A DNA stretch of 34,734 nt from Deltaproteobacteria bacterium. GTDB lineage: Bacteria > Myxococcota > XYA12-FULL-58-9. The notes under the pieces were generated by a model, which saw only the letters and a list, made by a program, of their open reading frames with translations, was not told the origin of the DNA and searched no databases. The DNA is taken from contig JACRCV010000093.1 in assembly GCA_016218825.1 (NCBI GenBank), positions 1 through 34,734 of the forward strand, given 5' to 3'. How positions within the stretch are numbered: position 1 is the stretch's first letter; every line of letters starts with the position of its first letter. Below, piece by piece: positions 4,575-34,637 of the stretch. The position numbers and the translations under genes were made by a program.

Positions 4575-5993
4575 CTATGGCTCCTCGGACTCGCTGCCGG
4601 CGAGCTTGTGGCGCTTCAGCTTCTCCCACAGGCTCTTTCGCGAGATGCCGAGAACGCGGGCCAGATCCTGGCGCGAGCCCTTGAACTCGCGCAGCGCGTG
4701 CGAAAGGTACGAGCGCTCGAAGTCTTCGACCACGTCGGAGAGCGGCCGGGCGGCGAAGCCGACCTTGAAGATCTCGCGGCTCTTGCCGCGCTCCCGCACC
4801 CCGTCCGGCAGCAGCTCCGGCCCGATGGCGGTCTTGCCGTCGGAGAGCGCGCAGGCGGACTCGACGATGTGCTCCAGCTCGCGGACGTTGCCGGGGTAGT
4901 CGTAGGCGAGCAGCAGATCGAGCGCCGGACGCGCGAAGCCGGGGCAGTGACGGCCGCTTTGCTCGCCCACCTTGGAAAGGAAGTGGTCGATGAGGAGCGG
5001 CACGTCGTCCTTGCGCTCGGCCAAGGACGGCAACGGCAGCTGCACGACCGTGAGGCGGTACATCAGGTCCTGACGAAACTTGCCGGCGGCGACGAGCGCC
5101 TCGAGGCTGCCTTTGCTGCTCGCGACCAGCCGGACGTCGATTGGAATCGATTGGCCGCTCCCGACCCTCTCGACGACGCGCTCCTGGATCACGCGCAACA
5201 GCTTCACCTGCACCTCGAGCGGGATCTCGTCGACCTCGTCCAACAGCAAGGTGCCACGGTTCGCGAGCTCGAAGCGGCCCTTCATCTCCTGGCCGGCGCC
5301 GGTGAACGCGCCCTTGGTGTGCCCGAAGAGCTCGGCCTCCATCAAGGTCGGCGGCAGCGACGCGCAGTGCACCTTGATGAACGGCCCGTCCCTGCGGTTG
5401 GAGGTCACGTGCAGCGCCCGGGCGACGAGCTCCTTGCCGGTGCCCGACGCGCCGATCACCAGCACCGTGGAGTCGGTCGGCGCCACCATCCGCACCCGGT
5501 CGAGCACCTTGACCCAGGCGTCGCTCTTGCCGACCAAGAAGCCCAAATCGGCGTCGTAGGCCCGGCCGCAGCGGAGGTCGCGGACCTCGGTGCGCAGGCG
5601 CGCCGTGGTCCAGGCGTTCTCGACCACGCGCACCATCTTTTCGTTCGGGAACGGTTTGGTAACGTAGTCGTAGGCGCCGATCTTCATCGCCGCGACCGCG
5701 TGCTCGATGTTGGCGTACGCGGTCATCAAGATGACCTCGGTGTACTCGGCGGCTTGCTTGAGCTTGCGCAGCAGGTCCATGCCGGACAAACCCGGCATCC
5801 GCACGTCGGAGATCACGACATCATAGTGCTTCGCCGCCAGAACGTTCAGCGCCTGGTCCCCGGAGGACGCCGTAACTACCGTGGCGCCAGCGTCTTTGAG
5901 GGAGTCGCGCAACGCCAAGACGATGGTCTGCTCGTCGTCGACCAGCAGCACCTCGCACCCCGAAAGCTTGCCGTCATGTGGCACTGGCGTCAC
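4575..5993 (-). CDS. NtrC/AtoC-type response regulator, sigma-54-dependent activator
   Basis: 472-residue DNA-binding regulator of a two-component pair; activates sigma-54 RNA polymerase at target promoters. The receiver domain (about 13-130) has the acidic pair D19/D20, phospho-acceptor D63 in 'VVISDVRMP' and the conserved Lys in 'VTKPF'. The AAA+ domain has a Walker A GASGTGKE (181-188), the sigma-54 contact loop GAFTGA (228-233) and Walker B 'TLLLDE' (about 248-253). A Fis-type helix-turn-helix near the C-terminus includes 'DLARVLGISRKSLWEKLKRH'. The GTG start at 5993 has GAGGAG eight bases upstream and overlaps the 3' end of the kinase gene by 20 bases, so the two are translationally coupled. 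An upstream extension to 6278 would run deep into the kinase and has no family match, so it was dropped. The regulon likely includes the neighbouring cytochromes, but this is inference. Confidence 0.93.
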   Translation of the reverse strand: MTPVPHDGKLSGCEVLLVDDEQTIVLALRDSLKDAGATVVTASSGDQALNVLAAKHYDVVISDVRMPGLSGMDLLRKLKQAAEYTEVILMTAYANIEHAVAAMKIGAYDYVTKPFPNEKMVRVVENAWTTARLRTEVRDLRCGRAYDADLGFLVGKSDAWVKVLDRVRMVAPTDSTVLVIGASGTGKELVARALHVTSNRRDGPFIKVHCASLPPTLMEAELFGHTKGAFTGAGQEMKGRFELANRGTLLLDEVDEIPLEVQVKLLRVIQERVVERVGSGQSIPIDVRLVASSKGSLEALVAAGKFRQDLMYRLTVVQLPLPSLAERKDDVPLLIDHFLSKVGEQSGRHCPGFARPALDLLLAYDYPGNVRELEHIVESACALSDGKTAIGPELLPDGVRERGKSREIFKVGFAARPLSDVVEDFERSYLSHALREFKGSRQDLARVLGISRKSLWEKLKRHKLAGSESEEP

Positions 5994-7488
5994 GGCTGGT
6001 GCTCCTCGCAGCGAGCGGCAGACGCACGGTGACTTCAGTGCCGCTCCCCGGCGCTGAGTCAATCTCGATACCGCCCCCGTGGTCCAACACGATGCGATGC
6101 GACACTGCAAGTCCCAGGCCAGTACCCTTGCCGGCTTCCTTGGTGGTGAAGAACGGATCGAAGACGTGCGGCAGATCGGCGTCGGCGATCCCCGTCCCGG
6201 AGTCTTTGATTCTGAGGATCGCGGTGGCTTTGTTCGCCACGACGGAGATCTGCAGCGCGCCCCCGCCCGGCATCGCATCGATGGCGTTCAACAACACGTT
6301 GATGACGACCTGTGCGAGCTGCGCCGAGTCGCCGACGATCATCACCGGGCTCGGCGGCTCGTTGCGCGTCAGCTCGACCTTTTGTTTTTGCAGACGCAAG
6401 GTCGCGAGGTCGACGGCGCGGCTGACGATGGTGCGCAGATCGACAGCGGCCTTCTGGTGCACCGAGGTGCGCGAGTACTCCAAGAGCCCGCGCACCACCG
6501 ACTCGATGTGCAGGGTGGCCTGAAGCATCACCGCGACGTACTCCGTGGTCTGCGCCGCGTCCCCGGGGTTCTGTTGGATGCGCCGCAGGCAGTTCTGGAT
6601 GCCGGTCACCGGGTTGTTGATCTCGTGCGCGACGCCGGCCGCCATCACCCCGACCGCGGCCATCTTCTCGGTGCGGCTCATCTGGCGGTAAGTCTCGTGC
6701 AACCGCAGCGTCACCGCGTCCACCTGGGCGGCGAGGTGACCGAGCTCGTCCTTGCGGTTGAGCGCGATCGCCTCACGGCGCCGGCCGGGCTCGAAGCGCT
6801 CGAGGACCGCGCCGATGGTCTTGATCGGCCGCAGCGAATACGTGGTGAACACGTAGGCGGCGCCGGCGGCTGCGAGCATCACCGTGAACAGCAGCACCAA
6901 CAGCTCGCGGCGAATCGCGGCCACCCGGTCGAGCAAGCGCTCGTCGCGCACCCCGAGGCGCAGCACCCCGAGCTCGCCGGCCGCGAGCGGCAGCGCGAAG
7001 TCCCGGTAGGTCTGGCCGAAGATCGCGAGGCGCTCGACGTGGTAGCCGGTCGCGGCCCGGTGACGGTTCAAGAACCGCAGCGCGTCCGGGAGCTCACCGT
7101 CGAAGCTGTGCCCGAGCACCCGGTCCTTGGGGTCGAGCACGAAGGCGTAGGCGAAGTCGGGGCTGGCGTTGCGGATGCTGTCGAGCAGCTTCTTCAGCCG
7201 CAGCGCGTCCGCGTGCAACAGCACGTCGACGCACTCGTCGGCGGCGAGACGGGCGAGCGACAGCGCCCGCCACTCCAGCTCGCTCTCCATCTCCGCGAGC
7301 ACCCGGGTCTCGGTGTACAGACGGTTGGCGAAGCCAAGGCCCGCGACCGCGGCCACCATCAGCAGCGCAAAGCGCGCCCTGAGCGACAGCCCGCTGCGGC
7401 AAAAGACCCGCAGGAGGCGCGCGGCCTGCGACCCCGATCGGTTGGCGACCCCGCGCTCCGACGATTCGGGACCGAGCGCGCCGGTCAT
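5974..7488 (-). CDS. Membrane sensor histidine kinase (NtrB/ZraS-like)
   Basis: 504-residue two-component sensor, partner of the overlapping NtrC-type regulator. The order is: cytoplasmic N-tail, membrane helix 38-54, periplasmic sensing region of about 140 residues, membrane helix 195-214, HAMP linker, dimerisation/phospho-acceptor domain with H288 in 'GVAHEINNPVTG', and HATPase domain with N-box N401 in 'LLNAIDAMPGG', then 'DSGTGIADADL' and 'GKGTGLGLAV'. The ATG at 7488 overlaps the TGA of the pentahaem cytochrome gene in an ATGA junction, which fixes the start and argues for one operon. The signal sensed is unknown. The tight coupling to a periplasmic cytochrome suggests a redox or terminal-acceptor cue, which is inference. 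Confidence 0.93.
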   Translation of the reverse strand: MTGALGPESSERGVANRSGSQAARLLRVFCRSGLSLRARFALLMVAAVAGLGFANRLYTETRVLAEMESELEWRALSLARLAADECVDVLLHADALRLKKLLDSIRNASPDFAYAFVLDPKDRVLGHSFDGELPDALRFLNRHRAATGYHVERLAIFGQTYRDFALPLAAGELGVLRLGVRDERLLDRVAAIRRELLVLLFTVMLAAAGAAYVFTTYSLRPIKTIGAVLERFEPGRRREAIALNRKDELGHLAAQVDAVTLRLHETYRQMSRTEKMAAVGVMAAGVAHEINNPVTGIQNCLRRIQQNPGDAAQTTEYVAVMLQATLHIESVVRGLLEYSRTSVHQKAAVDLRTIVSRAVDLATLRLQKQKVELTRNEPPSPVMIVGDSAQLAQVVINVLLNAIDAMPGGGALQISVVANKATAILRIKDSGTGIADADLPHVFDPFFTTKEAGKGTGLGLAVSHRIVLDHGGGIEIDSAPGSGTEVTVRLPLAARSTSRDASAT

Positions 7489-14303: not shown

Positions 14304-14373
14304 CGACACCAATGCGGCAGAGATGACGCGGGGGGTCAAGGCGACTCGCAACGGGTGTTGGCTGAAGGTTTTG

Positions 14374-14402
14374 TTGAGAGGTGGGAGCCCTGCCGTTATG
14401 AT
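14374..14402 (+). promoter_or_regulatory. Sigma-70-type promoter of the Cys-rich lipoprotein
   Basis: TTGAGA (14374-14379) and TATGAT (14397-14402) are separated by 17 bases, each matching its consensus at five of six positions. The predicted transcript would start near 14409, just before the GGAGG ribosome binding site at 14411-14415. Confidence 0.6.
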
Positions 14403-14424
14403 TAGCGCCGGAGGGATCCTGCCA

Positions 14425-17400
14425 ATGCGTCGATTGAAATCAGGGATTGCGGGTCTCTTCGGTGGGGTGGTCGTCGCCGTGCTCGCCGCTTGCAGCGGCA
14501 CCTCGCTGTCGACCGGTATCGCCCTCACGGTCACCTCGGGCCAGTCGCTCGATCCGGCGACGCCGATCGACGACTTGCAGGTCCAGGTGAAGGTCGGCGG
14601 TGGCGAAGCCCGGGAGCGGTCGGTGCCGCTCGGCGGCCGGCCGCTGTCGGCCACCGAGACGGTGAATCTGCTCTTCGATCCCGCAATGGACGGCCAGACG
14701 GCCGTGGTGCGGGTCGACGCCTTGCAGGCCGGCGTCATCCTCGCCTCCGGCAGGACCGAGGTCACGCTCAAGACGGGCAAGCTCGTGGCCGCGGTCGTCG
14801 AGCTGTCGCGCTGTGCGGCGGCGCTCGGCGACTACTGCGACGGCGAGCAGCTGGTGACCTGCGACCCGCAGACCGATCTGACCCGCCTCGTCGATTGTCC
14901 GTACGGCTGCAACCCCGACCTCGGGCGGTGCAATCTCTGCGCCCCCGGCTCGCTCGCCTGCCAGGGCGACCATTTCGTCGTCTGTGACGCCACGGGCTCG
15001 ATCGCCAACGAGGACGATTGCATCGCGCTCGGCGGCCAGTGTCGGACCGCGACCTGCACGCCCGACGGCTGTGCGTTCGCGATGGCGCAAGACGGCGCCG
15101 CCTGCGACGACAACGCCTTCTGCAGCGACAACACCGTGTGCAGCGCCGGCACCTGCTCGGCCGGCACCCCGAAGGACTGCGGCGACGGCAACCCCTGCAC
15201 CTTCGACACCTGCGACGAGCTCGGGCGGAGCTGCCGCCACGATCAGACGGTGATGAACGGCCTGCCCTGTAGCGACGGCAGCTTCTGCCTGGTGAACAAG
15301 AGCTGTGCCGCCGGCGCCTGTGCCGGAGGCACGTCGCGCAGCTGCGACGACGGCAACACCTGCACCGTCGACTCGTGCGACGAGCTGAGCCGGGCCTGTG
15401 TCAACACCGACCGCGGCAACGGCGCCAACTGCGACGACGGCGACTATTGCAGCGTCGGCGAGACCTGCAGCGGCACCGTCTGCGGCGGCGGCAGCGGCAG
15501 GAACTGCAACGACGCCAACCCCTGTACCACCGACAGCTGCGACACCGGGCTCGAGATGTGCGCGAACATCGACGTCGCCGACAGCACCCCGTGCGATGAC
15601 GGTACGTATTGCGTCGTCAACAAGACCTGTGTCACCGGCGTGTGTGGCGGCGGCGCCGCCCGGGTGTGCAACGACGGCAACGCGTGCACCGCCGACTACT
15701 GCGACGAAAACGCCGGGACCTGTCGGGCCGATCCCAACTCTCTGAACGGCGCCGCCTGCACCGACGGCAGCTTCTGTCTGGTGAGCAAGAGCTGCAGCAA
15801 CGGCGCTTGCGCCGGCGGGACGTTGCGCAACTGCGACGACGGCAACGCCTGCACCACTGACTCGTGCGACGAGCCGGGCCGCACCTGTGCCAACGCCGAC
15901 CGCGGCAACGGCGCCAACTGCGACGACGGCGACTACTGCAGCGTCGGCGAGACCTGCAGCGACAAGGTCTGCGGTGGCGGCAGCGGTCGAACCTGCGACG
16001 ACGCCAATCCGTGCACCAGCGACAGCTGCGACACCGACCTCGGGATGTGCGTGAACACCGACGTCGCCGACACCACCCCGTGCAACGACGGGACCTTCTG
16101 CGTCATCAACAAGACCTGCGTCGTCGGGGCCTGCGGTGGCGGCGCCCCCAGGGTATGCGACGACGGCAACGCTTGCACCTTCGACTCGTGCGACGAGAGC
16201 GGCCGGCAGTGCAGCTTCGACCCCGGGGCACGAAACGGCGCGCCCTGCGACAACGGTGCTTTCTGCACGGTCGGCGAGAGCTGCGGCGGCGGCGGCTGCG
16301 GCGGTGGCGCGCCCCGCGACTGCGCCGACACCAATTCGTGCACCCTCGACACCTGCAACGAAACCGCCAACGTCTGTGACCACACCGACCGCGGCAACGG
16401 CGCGGCGTGCGACGACGGGCGGTTCTGCACCGTCGGCGAGCGCTGCACCGCCAGCGTCTGCGGCGGCGGCAACGCCACCTGTGACGACGGCAACGCCTGC
16501 ACCACTGACGGGTGCGACGACGACGCCGACGTCTGCACCTCGACGCCGGTGGCAGCGGCTGACCTGTGTTTGGGCGCTTCGCAGCTGGCCTCGTGCGACG
16601 GCACGACCGCGCCGCCAGTCGTCCAGAACTGCAGCTTCGGTTGCAACGCCGTGCGCAAGGCCTGCAACGAGTGCAGCCCGTCGTCCCTCACCTGTCAGGG
16701 GGATCTGAACCTGTTCTGCTATGCCGAGGTGACCTGCGGCGCCGACGGGCGGGTCAGCGACAAGACCTGCTGCGCCTCGAACCGTTGCACCTGCACCGGG
16801 AACGCCTGTCTCGAGGACGCTTGCGTCGGCAGCGACGTGGTGACCGGCGACAAGGGCGCGGTCGCGACCGACACTCTGACCGGCACGACCTGCGGCGGCG
16901 CCGACAACATCCCCGGTGACTGCAGCCCCGGCGGCACTGCTTGCCGCACGCTCGCCGGCGGCGGCTCCCCCGAGGCGGTGTTCCAGATGGCGCTCCCGGA
17001 CACCAGCGATACGGCGACGACCTTCTACAAGGTGGTCCTCGACAGCGCCGGCTCGGCCTTCGATACGACTCTGAGGCTGTCGACGATGTGCACCAGCGAG
17101 CTGTATCAGTTCCCGAACGCCGGGGTCTGCGAGACGCCGACCGCGAGCTTTGCGGTTGGGGCGAGCTGCGCCGGCAGCGCCGGGGTCAAGGAGAAGCTGA
17201 CGCTCTGCGGCGTGCCCGAGGGCACCTACTATGGTGCGGTGGACGGCCAACCGGGGGGCGGCGCCGTTCCGGGGTTGTGCGGTGACTACAGCGTCGGGGC
17301 GACGATGACCCCGGTCATTCCCGACACCGACACGACGGCGGGCAACATCTCCAAGGGCGGCATCTTCCGTGGCACCACCTGTGGGCTCGCGGACAACTAC

Positions 17401-19077
17401 TCGTTCCCGGACTTCATCGCCACGACCTGCGCGCGGACCGACGGCAACTGCTATCGGAGCGGCACGACCGTCTATTGTCCGAGCTGCGGACCGGGGGCGG
17501 CGACCGACTGCACCATCGGCAGCTCGTCGGTCGACGGCTTGTGTGGTTTCAGCGGCGGCGCGCGGATCGAGGCGCCGATGACCGCCGGATCGCCCGACGC
17601 GGTGTTCTATCTGGCGCTGCCGGTGGGTGCCGGCGTCGATCTGTCGACCGAGGGCTCGCGCTTCGACACCGTGCTCTACCTGGAAGAGGCGGGCGCGAAC
17701 GGTCTGGTGTCGCCCGGCGCGCGCCGGATCTGCAACGACGACTGCACCGCGATCAACGGCGCGTCGCACATCCAGACCTCGCTACCGGCGGGCCTCTACT
17801 ATGTGGTGGTGGACGGCGCCGCGGGGGCCTGTGGCGAGTACACCCTGACCGTCGAGGTGTCGCCGGCCGCGACCTGCGGCGATCTGATCTGCACCGTCCA
17901 ACACGAGAGCTGCACCTCGTGTCCGGTCGACTGCCCCTGCCTGCACTGCGGCGACGGCGGCCTGCAAAGCAACGAGAGCGAGAAGTGTGACGACGGCAAC
18001 CGCACGAGCGGCGATGGCTGCAGCGCGACCTGCGCCGTCGAGCCCAACTACTGGTGTCGGGGCGTCCCCAGCCTCTGCTATCCGACCGTGAGCTACGCCC
18101 CGGCGTGTCCGCTCAACCTGCCGGTCCTCGACCCACCGAGCACCGGGGCCTCGAGCACCCTGAACGTGCCCGGCGCCTTCCAGATCTTCGACATGACCCT
18201 GGACGTCAACATCACCCACTCCTACACCGGTGACGTCACGGTCAACCTGGTGGCCCCGGACGCGACGTCGGCGATGGTGCACAACCTCAGCGGCGGCAGC
18301 TCGGATGACATCGTCGGCACCTACGACACCACGCTCATCCCCGACCCGCCGGCGAGCATGTCGGTGTTCGACAACCGTACCGGCAACGGCCTCTGGAGGC
18401 TGGAGGTCAAGGACCTCCTGGCCGGGTACGAGGGCGTGCTGAACTGCTGGGGCCTGACCTTCGTCAAGAAGACCACGTGTGGCAGTGGCGGGTGCGAGCC
18501 GCCGCAGGAGACCTGCGGCTCTTGCGCCGACTGCAACTGCGCGGCGGTGTGCGGCAACGGCCTCCTCGACACCGCCGTGGGCGAGCGCTGCGACGATGGC
18601 AACACCGCCCCCGGGGACGGCTGCAGTGGCCAGTGCGTCGTGGAGTCGAGCTTCTGGTGCACCGGCACTCCGAGCGTGTGCCGTCCCCTCATCCGGGTCG
18701 CGCGCGGGCCAAACCTCAACAAAGCGATCCCGGACGCCGACCCGGCCGGGATCACGGACACGATCAACGTCGGCAGTAGCTGCACGATCCGCGACATCAA
18801 CGTCGACGTGAACATTACCCACACGTGGAAGGGCGATCTCTTGGTTCAGCTCACCGGGCCGTCCGGGACCAAGGTTACTCTCCACAACCACACCGGCAGC
18901 AGCGGCGACGACATCGTCGGCAACTACGACCTGTCGCTGCAACCGGACCCGCCGTTGGCGATGACTGCGTTTGACGGCAAAGGCTCGGCCGGCAGCTGGG
19001 TGCTGTTCGCGGCAGACACGGTCGGATCCGACACCGGCACCCTGAACAGCTGGGCGGTGAACATCATCTGCAACTGA
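14425..19077 (+). CDS. Giant Cys-rich repeat lipoprotein with DUF4215 modules and two P-domains
   Basis: 1550-residue surface lipoprotein. The ATG at 14425 is preceded by GGAGG and followed by a signal peptide ending Val-Leu-Ala-Ala-Cys. Order: a beta domain (about 25-130); Cys-rich linkers; nine repeats of 54-55 residues (225-713) with the pattern 'CDDG.FC....C....C.GG..R.CDDGN.CT.DSCD....C'; and further Cys-rich linkers. Then come two beta domains of pre-peptidase (PPC) type ('FDT.L.L', 'YYVVVDG...CGEYTL'), and two copies of a DUF4215 module ('CGDG...CDDGN...GDGCSATC' and 'CGNG...CDDGN...GDGCSGQC'), each followed by a proprotein-convertase P-like beta domain ('DVNITHSYTGDVTVNLVAP', 'DVNITHTWKGDLLVQLTGP'). 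No protease catalytic domain is present. Many paired cysteines imply oxidative folding in the envelope. Such proteins are typical of Myxococcota; the function is unknown, with adhesion or matrix roles plausible. Confidence 0.88.
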   Translation: MRRLKSGIAGLFGGVVVAVLAACSGTSLSTGIALTVTSGQSLDPATPIDDLQVQVKVGGGEARERSVPLGGRPLSATETVNLLFDPAMDGQTAVVRVDALQAGVILASGRTEVTLKTGKLVAAVVELSRCAAALGDYCDGEQLVTCDPQTDLTRLVDCPYGCNPDLGRCNLCAPGSLACQGDHFVVCDATGSIANEDDCIALGGQCRTATCTPDGCAFAMAQDGAACDDNAFCSDNTVCSAGTCSAGTPKDCGDGNPCTFDTCDELGRSCRHDQTVMNGLPCSDGSFCLVNKSCAAGACAGGTSRSCDDGNTCTVDSCDELSRACVNTDRGNGANCDDGDYCSVGETCSGTVCGGGSGRNCNDANPCTTDSCDTGLEMCANIDVADSTPCDDGTYCVVNKTCVTGVCGGGAARVCNDGNACTADYCDENAGTCRADPNSLNGAACTDGSFCLVSKSCSNGACAGGTLRNCDDGNACTTDSCDEPGRTCANADRGNGANCDDGDYCSVGETCSDKVCGGGSGRTCDDANPCTSDSCDTDLGMCVNTDVADTTPCNDGTFCVINKTCVVGACGGGAPRVCDDGNACTFDSCDESGRQCSFDPGARNGAPCDNGAFCTVGESCGGGGCGGGAPRDCADTNSCTLDTCNETANVCDHTDRGNGAACDDGRFCTVGERCTASVCGGGNATCDDGNACTTDGCDDDADVCTSTPVAAADLCLGASQLASCDGTTAPPVVQNCSFGCNAVRKACNECSPSSLTCQGDLNLFCYAEVTCGADGRVSDKTCCASNRCTCTGNACLEDACVGSDVVTGDKGAVATDTLTGTTCGGADNIPGDCSPGGTACRTLAGGGSPEAVFQMALPDTSDTATTFYKVVLDSAGSAFDTTLRLSTMCTSELYQFPNAGVCETPTASFAVGASCAGSAGVKEKLTLCGVPEGTYYGAVDGQPGGGAVPGLCGDYSVGATMTPVIPDTDTTAGNISKGGIFRGTTCGLADNYSFPDFIATTCARTDGNCYRSGTTVYCPSCGPGAATDCTIGSSSVDGLCGFSGGARIEAPMTAGSPDAVFYLALPVGAGVDLSTEGSRFDTVLYLEEAGANGLVSPGARRICNDDCTAINGASHIQTSLPAGLYYVVVDGAAGACGEYTLTVEVSPAATCGDLICTVQHESCTSCPVDCPCLHCGDGGLQSNESEKCDDGNRTSGDGCSATCAVEPNYWCRGVPSLCYPTVSYAPACPLNLPVLDPPSTGASSTLNVPGAFQIFDMTLDVNITHSYTGDVTVNLVAPDATSAMVHNLSGGSSDDIVGTYDTTLIPDPPASMSVFDNRTGNGLWRLEVKDLLAGYEGVLNCWGLTFVKKTTCGSGGCEPPQETCGSCADCNCAAVCGNGLLDTAVGERCDDGNTAPGDGCSGQCVVESSFWCTGTPSVCRPLIRVARGPNLNKAIPDADPAGITDTINVGSSCTIRDINVDVNITHTWKGDLLVQLTGPSGTKVTLHNHTGSSGDDIVGNYDLSLQPDPPLAMTAFDGKGSAGSWVLFAADTVGSDTGTLNSWAVNIICN
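15097..16563 (+). repeat. Three tandem 489-bp super-repeats inside the Cys-rich gene
   Basis: Nine Cys-rich units start at 15097, 15262, 15424, 15586, 15751, 15913, 16075, 16240 and 16402. Their lengths cycle 55-54-54 residues, so the gene carries three copies of a 163-residue (489-bp) block starting at 15097, 15586 and 16075. Units 2 and 5, and 3 and 6, are the most alike: unit 3 and unit 6 share the 'ANCDDGDYCSVGETCS' opening and most of their bases. Units ending in 'DRGNG' are 2, 5 and 8; units ending in 'NG' after an extra residue are 1, 4 and 7. Copy 3 has decayed in its last unit. Confidence 0.85.
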
Positions 19078-33381: not shown

Positions 33382-33666
33382 ATGCGCGTGCGGATCAACA
33401 TCGGCCTCGATTTCGACGGCAACCACACCTTCGATTGGCTGGAGACCGCCGACGCGCACGCCATCGAGATCCCGAAGTCGACGCTCGACCGCTGGACCGC
33501 GGAGCGCGAGGCGTTCACCGTCGCCTACCTGCGCTGGAAGCGGGTGATGGAAGAGATCGAAGACACCCTGTACCGCGCCGAGCACGCCCGCAGCGAGAAA
33601 GAAGCCGCGGCCGAGCCGGCGTTGGCCTACGCCGCCGCCTCGGGCCACCGCCGGGTGCGCGGCTAG
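33382..33666 (+). CDS. Small hypothetical protein
   Basis: 94 residues starting at ATG 33382, where AAGGGTGGG lies just upstream. The N-terminal part reads 'VRINIGLDFDGNHTFDWLE' and 'AHAIEIPKSTLDRWTAEREA'. It then forms a long charged helix ('YLRWKRVMEEIEDTLYRAEH') and ends in an Ala-rich, basic tail. No signal peptide or known domain is seen. It follows the giant beta-rich gene by 108 bases on the same strand, and its stop codon abuts the A-tract of the oppositely oriented terminator. Function unknown. Confidence 0.7.
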   Translation: MRVRINIGLDFDGNHTFDWLETADAHAIEIPKSTLDRWTAEREAFTVAYLRWKRVMEEIEDTLYRAEHARSEKEAAAEPALAYAAASGHRRVRG

Positions 33667-33668
33667 GC

Positions 33669-33711
33669 AAAAAAAGACGCCCGGCGACCTCTCTCGAGGC
33701 GGCCGGGCGTC
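33669..33711 (-). terminator. Strong rho-independent terminator of the selenoprotein gene
   Basis: The stem GACGCCCGGC/GCCGGGCGTC (33676-33685 with 33702-33711) is a perfect 10 bp and encloses an inner CCTC-TCTC-GAGG hairpin. On the minus strand it is followed by seven U residues (A-run 33669-33675 on plus). It lies 23 bases past the stop codon of the oxidoreductase gene. Nothing U-rich follows in the plus direction. Confidence 0.88.
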
Positions 33712-33734
33712 TCCACTGACCGAATGCGGCGCGA

Positions 33735-34508
33735 CTACATCGACTTCTCGCCCTTCTCCACCACCGCCTTCTGGTAATAGTCCCTGGCGGCGATGCCGCT
33801 CGCCTTGGCCTTCTTCAGCTCCTCGTCGATGAGGGCCTCGAAGGCGGGCTGCGGCTGCGCCCCGGACAAGAACCGGCCGTTCACGAAGAACGCCGGGGTG
33901 CCACGGGCGCCCATCTGCATGCTGAGCTTCTGGTCTTCTTCGATGCGGGTCTTGTACTTGTTGTCGGCAAAGCACTTCTTGAACCGGCCGACGTCGACGC
34001 CAATCTCGCCGGCCCACTTCTCGTAGCTCTCCGGCGAGAGCGCCTGCTGATTGCCGAACATCTTCTCAGTCATCGGCCAGAACTTCCCTTGCTCCCGCGC
34101 GCACTCGGCAGCGTTGGCCGCCGGCATCGCGTTCGGGTGGAAGCTCAACGGATTGTGCTTGAACACGATCCGCAGGTCTTTGCCGTACTTGTCTTCCAGA
34201 GCCTTGAGGGTCGGACCGACCCTCCCGCAGAAGGGTCACTGAAAGTCCGAGACTTCGACCAATGTCACCCAAGCGTCGGCACCCCCTTTGGCGGCGGAGT
34301 CTCCGACCGGAAAACCGTAGACCTTGGCCGGGTCCGGGCCCTGCGGCCGTTGCGGCTGCTGGGGCATCGACGGCCTGCCGCCTTGCTCCAGCTTGGTGAG
34401 GATCTTCTTCTGCGTTTCCTTGATCTCCTCGATGTCCCCACGGGTGACGCACGCGGCGATCCCGAGGGCAAGGAGCATCAGGGGCATGCGCTCCAGTGCA
34501 AACCTCAT
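33735..34508 (-). CDS. DsbA-family thioredoxin-fold lipoprotein, probable selenoprotein (Sec-Pro-Phe-Cys)
   Basis: 257 residues if the TGA at 34238-34236 is read as selenocysteine (Sec91). The ATG at 34508 has GGAGG eight bases upstream. A signal peptide ends Leu-Gly-Ile-Ala-Ala-Cys20 (lipobox), then a coiled-coil-like stretch ('IEEIKETQKKILTKLEQ') and a Pro/Gln linker lead to the thioredoxin fold. There 'VTLVEVSDFQ' is followed by TGA-CCC-TTC-TGC, i.e. U-P-F-C in place of the family's C-P-F-C. The frame continues without error through 'GRVGPTLKALEDKYG', 'IVFKHNPLSFHPNA', a helical insert ('AAECAREQGKFWPM...'), the cis-Pro loop 'RGTPAFFVNG' and a C-terminal helix. The fold is complete on both sides of the TGA. 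The likely role is dithiol/selenol redox exchange in the envelope. The alternatives are a C-to-A nonsense mutation or a base error, but the downstream hairpin argues against these. The genome's selA/selB/selC genes are outside the window. Confidence 0.82.
34206..34224 (-). promoter_or_regulatory. Putative bacterial SECIS element
   Basis: Immediately downstream of the in-frame UGA, inside the coding region, the mRNA holds GAGGGUCG-GUC-CGACCCUC. It is a perfect 8-bp stem, or 7 bp with apex GGUCC. The apex lies about 20 nt after UGA, inside the usual 16-37 nt window for bacterial SECIS loops. The GGUC at the apex matches the GGUCU loop recognised by SelB in E. coli fdhF. I see no comparable hairpin directly after an in-frame stop elsewhere in the window. 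Confidence 0.72.
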
Positions 34509-34551
34509 ACGAGTAACCTCCATCCGGATTAGAGTCCTGGGCCGGGGACGA

Positions 34552-34579
34552 ACCTTATTCAGACTCGGCCGCAAGTCAA
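34552..34579 (-). promoter_or_regulatory. Candidate promoter of the selenoprotein gene
   Basis: On the minus strand, TTGACT (34579-34574) and TAAGGT (34557-34552) are separated by 16 bases. The predicted start lies roughly 35-40 bases before the ATG. The -35 is five of six; the -10 fits the looser TANNNT pattern common in GC-rich bacteria. Confidence 0.42.
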
Positions 34580-34637
34580 GCCCGGCCGTCGCCGCCATAA
34601 CTCCGCTCTAAGGCCACGCGCCCCGGGGCAGCCGGCG

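Follow-up and report, generated by a model that had tools for sequence, protein, structure and literature searches.

A probable selenoprotein of the DsbA superfamily, with an in-frame UGA at its active site and an adjoining SECIS-type hairpin, in the genome of an uncultured bacterium, apparently of the Myxococcota

A gene at positions 33735-34508 of the window (the whole stretch of 34,734 nucleotides that was analysed, which is contig C73 of its genome) is interrupted by a single in-frame UGA, and this observation is confirmed. The gene almost certainly encodes a selenoprotein, judging from its sequence and from those of its relatives. Its placement as a selenoprotein of the DsbA superfamily is well supported; related selenium enzymes are already known, and the gene itself was previously unmodelled. 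A preliminary description, made from the window alone, had called it a probable selenoprotein, and that reading is now backed by the selenocysteine (Sec) genes of the same genome, by alternation of Sec and Cys among orthologues, by an intact C-terminal half and by a selenocysteine insertion sequence (SECIS) element. The explanation as a whole, which joins SECIS-directed decoding to an envelope tether and a thiol-disulfide role, is very highly probable. The source genome is a draft of 6.54 Mb in 121 contigs (96.5% complete, 1.1% contamination).

When TGA is translated as Sec (U), the gene forms one frame of 257 codons followed by TAG, and its sole interruption is the TGA at codon 91 (Table 1). 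VSDFQ precedes this codon and PFCGRV follows it, so that TGA stands in place of the first Cys of a CxxC motif. The translation thus agrees with the preliminary description, which had the frame complete from lipobox to C-terminus save for one TGA (34238-34236) at that Cys; its further statement, that the flanks keep frame and family pattern, including the cis-Pro loop, is borne out by Pfam matches that run across the UGA and by the downstream GTPAFF motif. Mechanical calling of open reading frames (ORFs) gives two, 34236-34598 (120 aa) and 33735-34166 (143 aa), which is the split that had been foreseen for standard annotation. The expression signals, described as intact, are so in part: a GGAGG ribosome-binding site lies upstream of the ATG and there is a strong intrinsic terminator past the stop, but a search for a sigma-70 consensus promoter at the gene found none. 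Elsewhere in the window, positions 14323-19074 (+) hold a 1584-aa ORF with a C-terminal proprotein convertase P-domain and Dictyostelium-type repeats, and positions 4578-6278 (-) encode a sigma-54 activator with a response-regulator receiver domain.

Table 1. Positions in the window of the gene, its predicted protein features and its RNA signals
Feature	Position	Strand	Basis
Complete predicted selenoprotein gene; ATG 34508-34506, 257 codons, TAG 33737-33735	33735..34508	-	Translation with TGA as U; Pfam; orthologue alignment
Signal peptide and lipobox (MRFALERMPLMLLALGIAAC); predicted lipidated Cys20 at 34451-34449	34449..34508	-	Sequence motif; Cys20 invariant in 10 orthologues
Helix, residues 23-42, heptad-like (putative coiled coil), then Pro/Gln-rich linker to about residue 62	34383..34442	-	AlphaFold2 model; conserved residues
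DsbA-fold catalytic domain, residues 63-236	33801..34322	-	pLDDT about 98; BdbD Z 23.0, rmsd 1.7 over 175 aligned; Pfam
In-frame UGA, codon 91, first residue of UxxC (U-P-F-C)	34236..34238	-	Translation; orthologue alignment
Bacterial SECIS-type hairpin GAGGGUCGGUCCGACCCUC	34206..34224	-	Folds, comparison, covariation, fourfold-site conservation, fdhF spacing
Cys136; putative second disulfide with Cys179 (predicted pairing)	34101..34103	-	Alignment; invariant in 10 orthologues
Cys179	33972..33974	-	Alignment; invariant in 10 orthologues
cis-Pro loop GTPAFF, residues 203-208	33888..33905	-	Invariant in 10 orthologues
Intrinsic transcription terminator directly past the stop	33665..33725 (about)	-	RNA fold -39.6 kcal/mol, z -5.7, then T run

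The two-ORF result of the default bacterial code would be expected if the UGA were a real stop, that is, if a nonsense mutation had left the C-terminal half of a pseudogene to decay. The sequence past the UGA argues against this. Codons 92-257 align without gaps to every orthologue (n = 9), with 57-68% identity over 166 aa, and neither a frameshift nor decay of the C-terminal half, for which a check had been proposed, is seen. Nonsynonymous divergence (dN) from the window gene over this portion is 0.24-0.39, well below the synonymous divergence (dS) where dS can be estimated, although the ratios are indicative only because dS is near or beyond saturation. Decay is also hard to reconcile with three further orthologues that share the TGA codon and keep their downstream frames intact, with the Sec machinery of the genome, with hairpin conservation that is specific to the TGA forms, and with the UGA and SECIS pairs found in a second phylum; a decaying gene is very improbable. 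Taken together, the identity past the UGA, the TGA that recurs in three separately assembled orthologues and the TGA-specific hairpin indicate that an in-frame UGA with an intact downstream domain is far beyond chance.

Alternation between Sec and Cys is seen directly in the orthologue alignment, which contains both kinds of relative (Cys or UGA at position 91) that had been proposed as a check. The codon is TGA in L112, L139 and L140 and TGC in L109, L110, L111, L113, L114 and L115; thus, the UGA falls where homologues hold Cys, and its flanks are conserved. A best match (about 55-69% identity) exists in each of the eight genomes of the order. Within the order, the window gene and that of G004 (L112) have TGA, and TGC is present in G001, G002, G003, G005, G006 (same genus) and G007; outside the order, TGA occupies the codon in G011 and G015. 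Where the nearest relatives have named records, these are metagenome-assembled genomes of Myxococcota. SelA was not found in G002, G003 or G005, all three of which have Cys forms. Both TGA genomes of the order have it, as do the Cys-form genomes G001, G006 and G007 and also G011, G015 and the genome of L070 (titled Acidobacteria); none of the UGA forms examined is in a genome shown to lack SelA. In trees built with the Sec/Cys site itself left out, the ten orthologues form one clade (100/99) in which the Cys protein of G007 is sister to the window protein, and Sec/Cys changes number at least 3 among 43 proteins and at least 7 among 55.

Some members of the wider family depart from the UxxC or CxxC pattern. 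The orthologue L114 (G002:C82), whose genome yielded no SelA, has CxxS in place of CxxC. A lipoprotein paralogue of the same layout, L116 (G001:C41:33416-34036), has lost both active-site residues (FNFQEMFSGQ) and is perhaps non-catalytic. In-frame stops in other paralogues (e.g. L100, L101 and L182) were considered and rejected as boundary stops or chance matches rather than active-site UGA codons.

The codons just past the UGA can form a hairpin, GAGGGUCGGUCCGACCCUC, which starts 11 nt past the UGA and has an 8-bp stem; its apical GGUC starts 18 nt past the UGA. In the published bacterial SECIS (bSECIS) model, a G stands within the first two positions of a small apical loop and the spacing to the UGA is 16-37 nt (PMC13188914); the window hairpin has such a loop, at a distance inside that range. 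Checked against E. coli records, it shares with the fdhF SECIS the apical GGUC and the same 18-nt distance from the UGA, whereas the stem sequence differs; SECIS elements of different genes are mostly dissimilar (PMC13188914). Presence of a hairpin is by itself weak evidence because, across the window, 9% of TGA trinucleotides are followed by one that has 7 bp or more and a G near the start of its loop. In addition, when this region is folded as a single sequence, its fold does not stand out at this GC content (z -0.96), and Rfam, searched at the gathering threshold and at E values up to 10, reported no SECIS or other RNA family. Since the fold is not significant in such GC-rich DNA and the Rfam models did not recognise the element, the case for a SECIS is built on comparison.

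Every Sec form has the hairpin. None of the six Cys orthologues has it, even though the same V-G-P-T residues are encoded, with other codons, in several of them. Against nulls made from synonymous codons, the energy of the hairpin is unusual in seven of seven Sec forms (p 0.0015-0.048) and ordinary in six of six Cys forms (p 0.10-0.91). Third positions of fourfold-degenerate codons within the hairpin are identical in 27/30 Sec-Sec comparisons (90%), compared with 106/304 (35%) at fourfold sites elsewhere in the gene, 24/81 for hairpin codons in Sec-Cys pairs and 18/48 in Cys-Cys pairs. Across 25 sequences, 98.5% of the stem cells are paired, 5 cells have changed on both sides, and 0/500 shuffles score as high for covariation; with six sequences only, 195/500 do. 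By these comparisons of sequence, a SECIS element is present and is specific to the UGA forms. The same results bear on the quality of the DNA. The codon is one base away from a Cys codon, and an error of sequencing or assembly could turn TGC into TGA. Such an error, however, accounts neither for a correctly spaced, conserved SECIS hairpin nor for fourfold sites beneath it that match those of other TGA forms to an extent not reached between Cys forms. We consider an error of this kind to be scarcely credible.

The source genome contains the machinery that decoding of the UGA as Sec would need. The tRNA-Sec (73.2 bits) has the anticodon UCA, the genes for SelA (472 bits) and SelB (295 bits) adjoin each other on contig C115, and SelD (378 bits; L105, G000:C120:59255-60184) has its own in-frame TGA at the Cys/Sec site (HCAG-U-ASKIGP), so a second gene of the same genome uses the same decoding. 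A search for selA, selB, selC (tRNA-Sec) and selD had been proposed as a check, and all four are present. Readthrough of the UGA as some other amino acid, such as Trp or Cys, through a change of code or near-cognate suppression would likewise yield a full-length protein. Yet the other genes of the window fit the standard code with UGA as stop, the full Sec apparatus is at hand, and the codon occupies the place of Sec or Cys in a redox motif and has a SECIS; insertion of another residue is thus extremely improbable, and Sec remains the preferred reading.

The predicted protein has three parts. By motif, the N-terminus is a signal peptide with a lipobox, LGIAAC, at residue 20, as in bacterial lipoproteins, and its Cys is invariant in 10/10 orthologues. 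The helix that follows has conserved residues E28, Q33, I36, L37 and L40 and leads through the linker to the catalytic domain. Across the UGA, this domain matches Pfam Thioredoxin_4 (8e-24, 85.1 bits; cut-off 23.2) and DSBA (3e-21, 76.4 bits; cut-off 25.6). The AlphaFold2 model (mean pLDDT 92.4) matches the folds of BdbD, ScsC, alpha-DsbA2 and TsdA at Z 20-23. A thioredoxin fold with a helical insertion, a CxxC-type motif and a cis-Pro are all found, which places the protein in the DsbA superfamily (PF01323 / PF13462).

DsbA-like selenoproteins with UxxC were described in 2005 and 2006 (PMC1088965, PMC1794560), and one is listed in the myxobacterium Anaeromyxobacter dehalogenans (PMC1794560); a 2026 review lists them as PF01323 UxxC "form 1" (PMC13188914). 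The statement in the preliminary description that earlier surveys report such proteins is therefore correct, and its suggestion of a possibly under-described kind overstates the novelty, since both DsbA-like and seleno-lipoprotein families are already catalogued. The window protein is like the published DsbA-like selenoprotein of Zhang and Gladyshev in its DSBA domain, UxxC motif, bacterial SECIS and Cys homologues. It is unlike the 2005 Sargasso DsbA-like family (COG2761), a comparison made by names and motifs only, in that its best matches are to Thioredoxin_4 and NF041057. Its lipid anchor, helical stalk and linker are features without a description for the DsbA-like selenoprotein family in PMC1088965, PMC1794560 or PMC13188914.

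NF041057 (Rcas_1661 family thioredoxin-like (seleno)lipoprotein), given as "DsbG-like" in PMC13188914, is the NCBIfam model that fits best, both for the window protein and for each of the 10 orthologues. Its members, like these proteins, are thioredoxin-fold lipoproteins with Sec or Cys. However, at 98.6 bits the window protein falls short of the curated 190-bit cut-off and is not assigned to this family, and the match covers residues 62-229 only and not the N-terminal region. A search of the literature on Rcas_1661 found nothing. Among solved structures, BdbD of Bacillus subtilis has the closest fold (Z 23.0), and DsbA/TsdA of Corynebacterium diphtheriae gives a sequence match (E 4e-19) over residues 63-235, short of the N-terminal stalk; unlike the window protein, both are Cys enzymes. 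The trimeric isomerases ScsC (Proteus mirabilis, Caulobacter) and alpha-DsbA2 of Wolbachia have the same catalytic fold (Z 20-21), but these also use Cys, and identity is about 20-22%. ScsC shares the order of parts, an N-terminal helical stalk, a flexible linker and then the DsbA domain, as far as can be seen from a monomer model of the window protein. We know of no lipid anchor in ScsC.

A route from gene to function can be proposed. SelB and tRNA-Sec would decode the UGA at codon 91 as selenocysteine, directed by the SECIS inside the coding sequence. The product would be exported and lipidated on Cys20, and the short amphipathic helix and flexible linker would then tether the DsbA-fold domain to the envelope, where the enzyme would probably be an oligomer. 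Within Sec91-Pro-Phe-Cys94, the selenolate would attack a substrate disulfide and Cys94 would resolve the mixed selenosulfide. That the product is an envelope thiol-disulfide oxidoreductase is highly probable.

The direction of its net reaction is a finer question, for which the main rival to an isomerase or reductase is a net oxidase of the DsbA type that a VKOR/DsbB partner would recycle. The closest solved relatives include oxidases, BdbD and C. diphtheriae DsbA, as well as isomerases, and the genome has two VKOR genes. One of these, at C84, reads into a thioredoxin-fold domain; this VKOR thus already has a thioredoxin-fold partner in the same ORF region, and the window gene has no VKOR as a neighbour. 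As a rule, Sec is preferred for tasks that call for a strong nucleophile or reductant, and its role is usually a reduced, nucleophilic one. The stalk and linker, for their part, resemble those of isomerases: in ScsC, isomerase activity needs the trimerization stalk and flexible linker, and removal of the stalk yields an oxidase (PMC5524982). The orthologues have no conserved gene neighbourhood, only one distant aminotransferase match being shared. A net oxidase is possible but rather unlikely. Because the stalk-linker-DsbA layout is like that of ScsC and Sec favours a strong nucleophile or reductant, we lean slightly, by analogy, towards an isomerase or reductase over an oxidase, and the most likely product would be a lipid-anchored, oligomeric thiol-disulfide isomerase/reductase.

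The UGA and hairpin core are not confined to one order. A pattern made from them has exact matches in 5/195 genomes of the phylum; such matches are TGA by construction, and TGC versions appear only at 1-2 mismatches. In the fifth of these genomes, G017 (L167), the encoded DsbA protein has a transmembrane anchor and the motif UPFC. The phylum to which L070 belongs has 21 sites, in 20/396 genomes, that match with at most 1 mismatch, and all have TGA and are DsbA-like, a recurrence across phyla that argues against a dying pseudogene. In viral contigs, the pattern was searched for and was absent. The proteins of these 20 genomes (L196-L215) are UxxC DsbA-fold proteins with the same SECIS core; some have a transmembrane segment and coiled coil as tether and others an N-terminal SurA-like domain. 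In L208, the SurA-like N-terminal domain (PF13624, 33.4 bits; cut-off 27.2) is fused to the UxxC DsbA domain, which points to protein folding. One Acidobacteria gene region encodes two tandem DsbA-type domains, each with its own UGA and SECIS (L070:3500-3502 and L070:4112-4114).

Default annotation splits the window gene and the NF041057 cut-off is not reached; consequently, the subfamily has probably been missed or called a pseudogene. Its near-invariant SECIS cassette provides a specific sequence probe for further members. We suggest tentatively that these proteins may form a phylum-spanning group of Sec-containing DsbA-fold foldases, which share the cassette GAGGGUCGGUCCGACCCUC, differ in their tethers (a lipoprotein stalk, a transmembrane segment with coiled coil, or a SurA-like chaperone domain) and act as envelope seleno-isomerases. 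The orthologue set presents the same single-copy lipoprotein, with Sec or with Cys, in neighbouring genera with and without Sec machinery, so that the contribution of Sec to an envelope disulfide enzyme is open to direct test. If the proposed group is real, Sec/Cys switching within one order of seleno-isomerases would be a natural test of what Sec adds.
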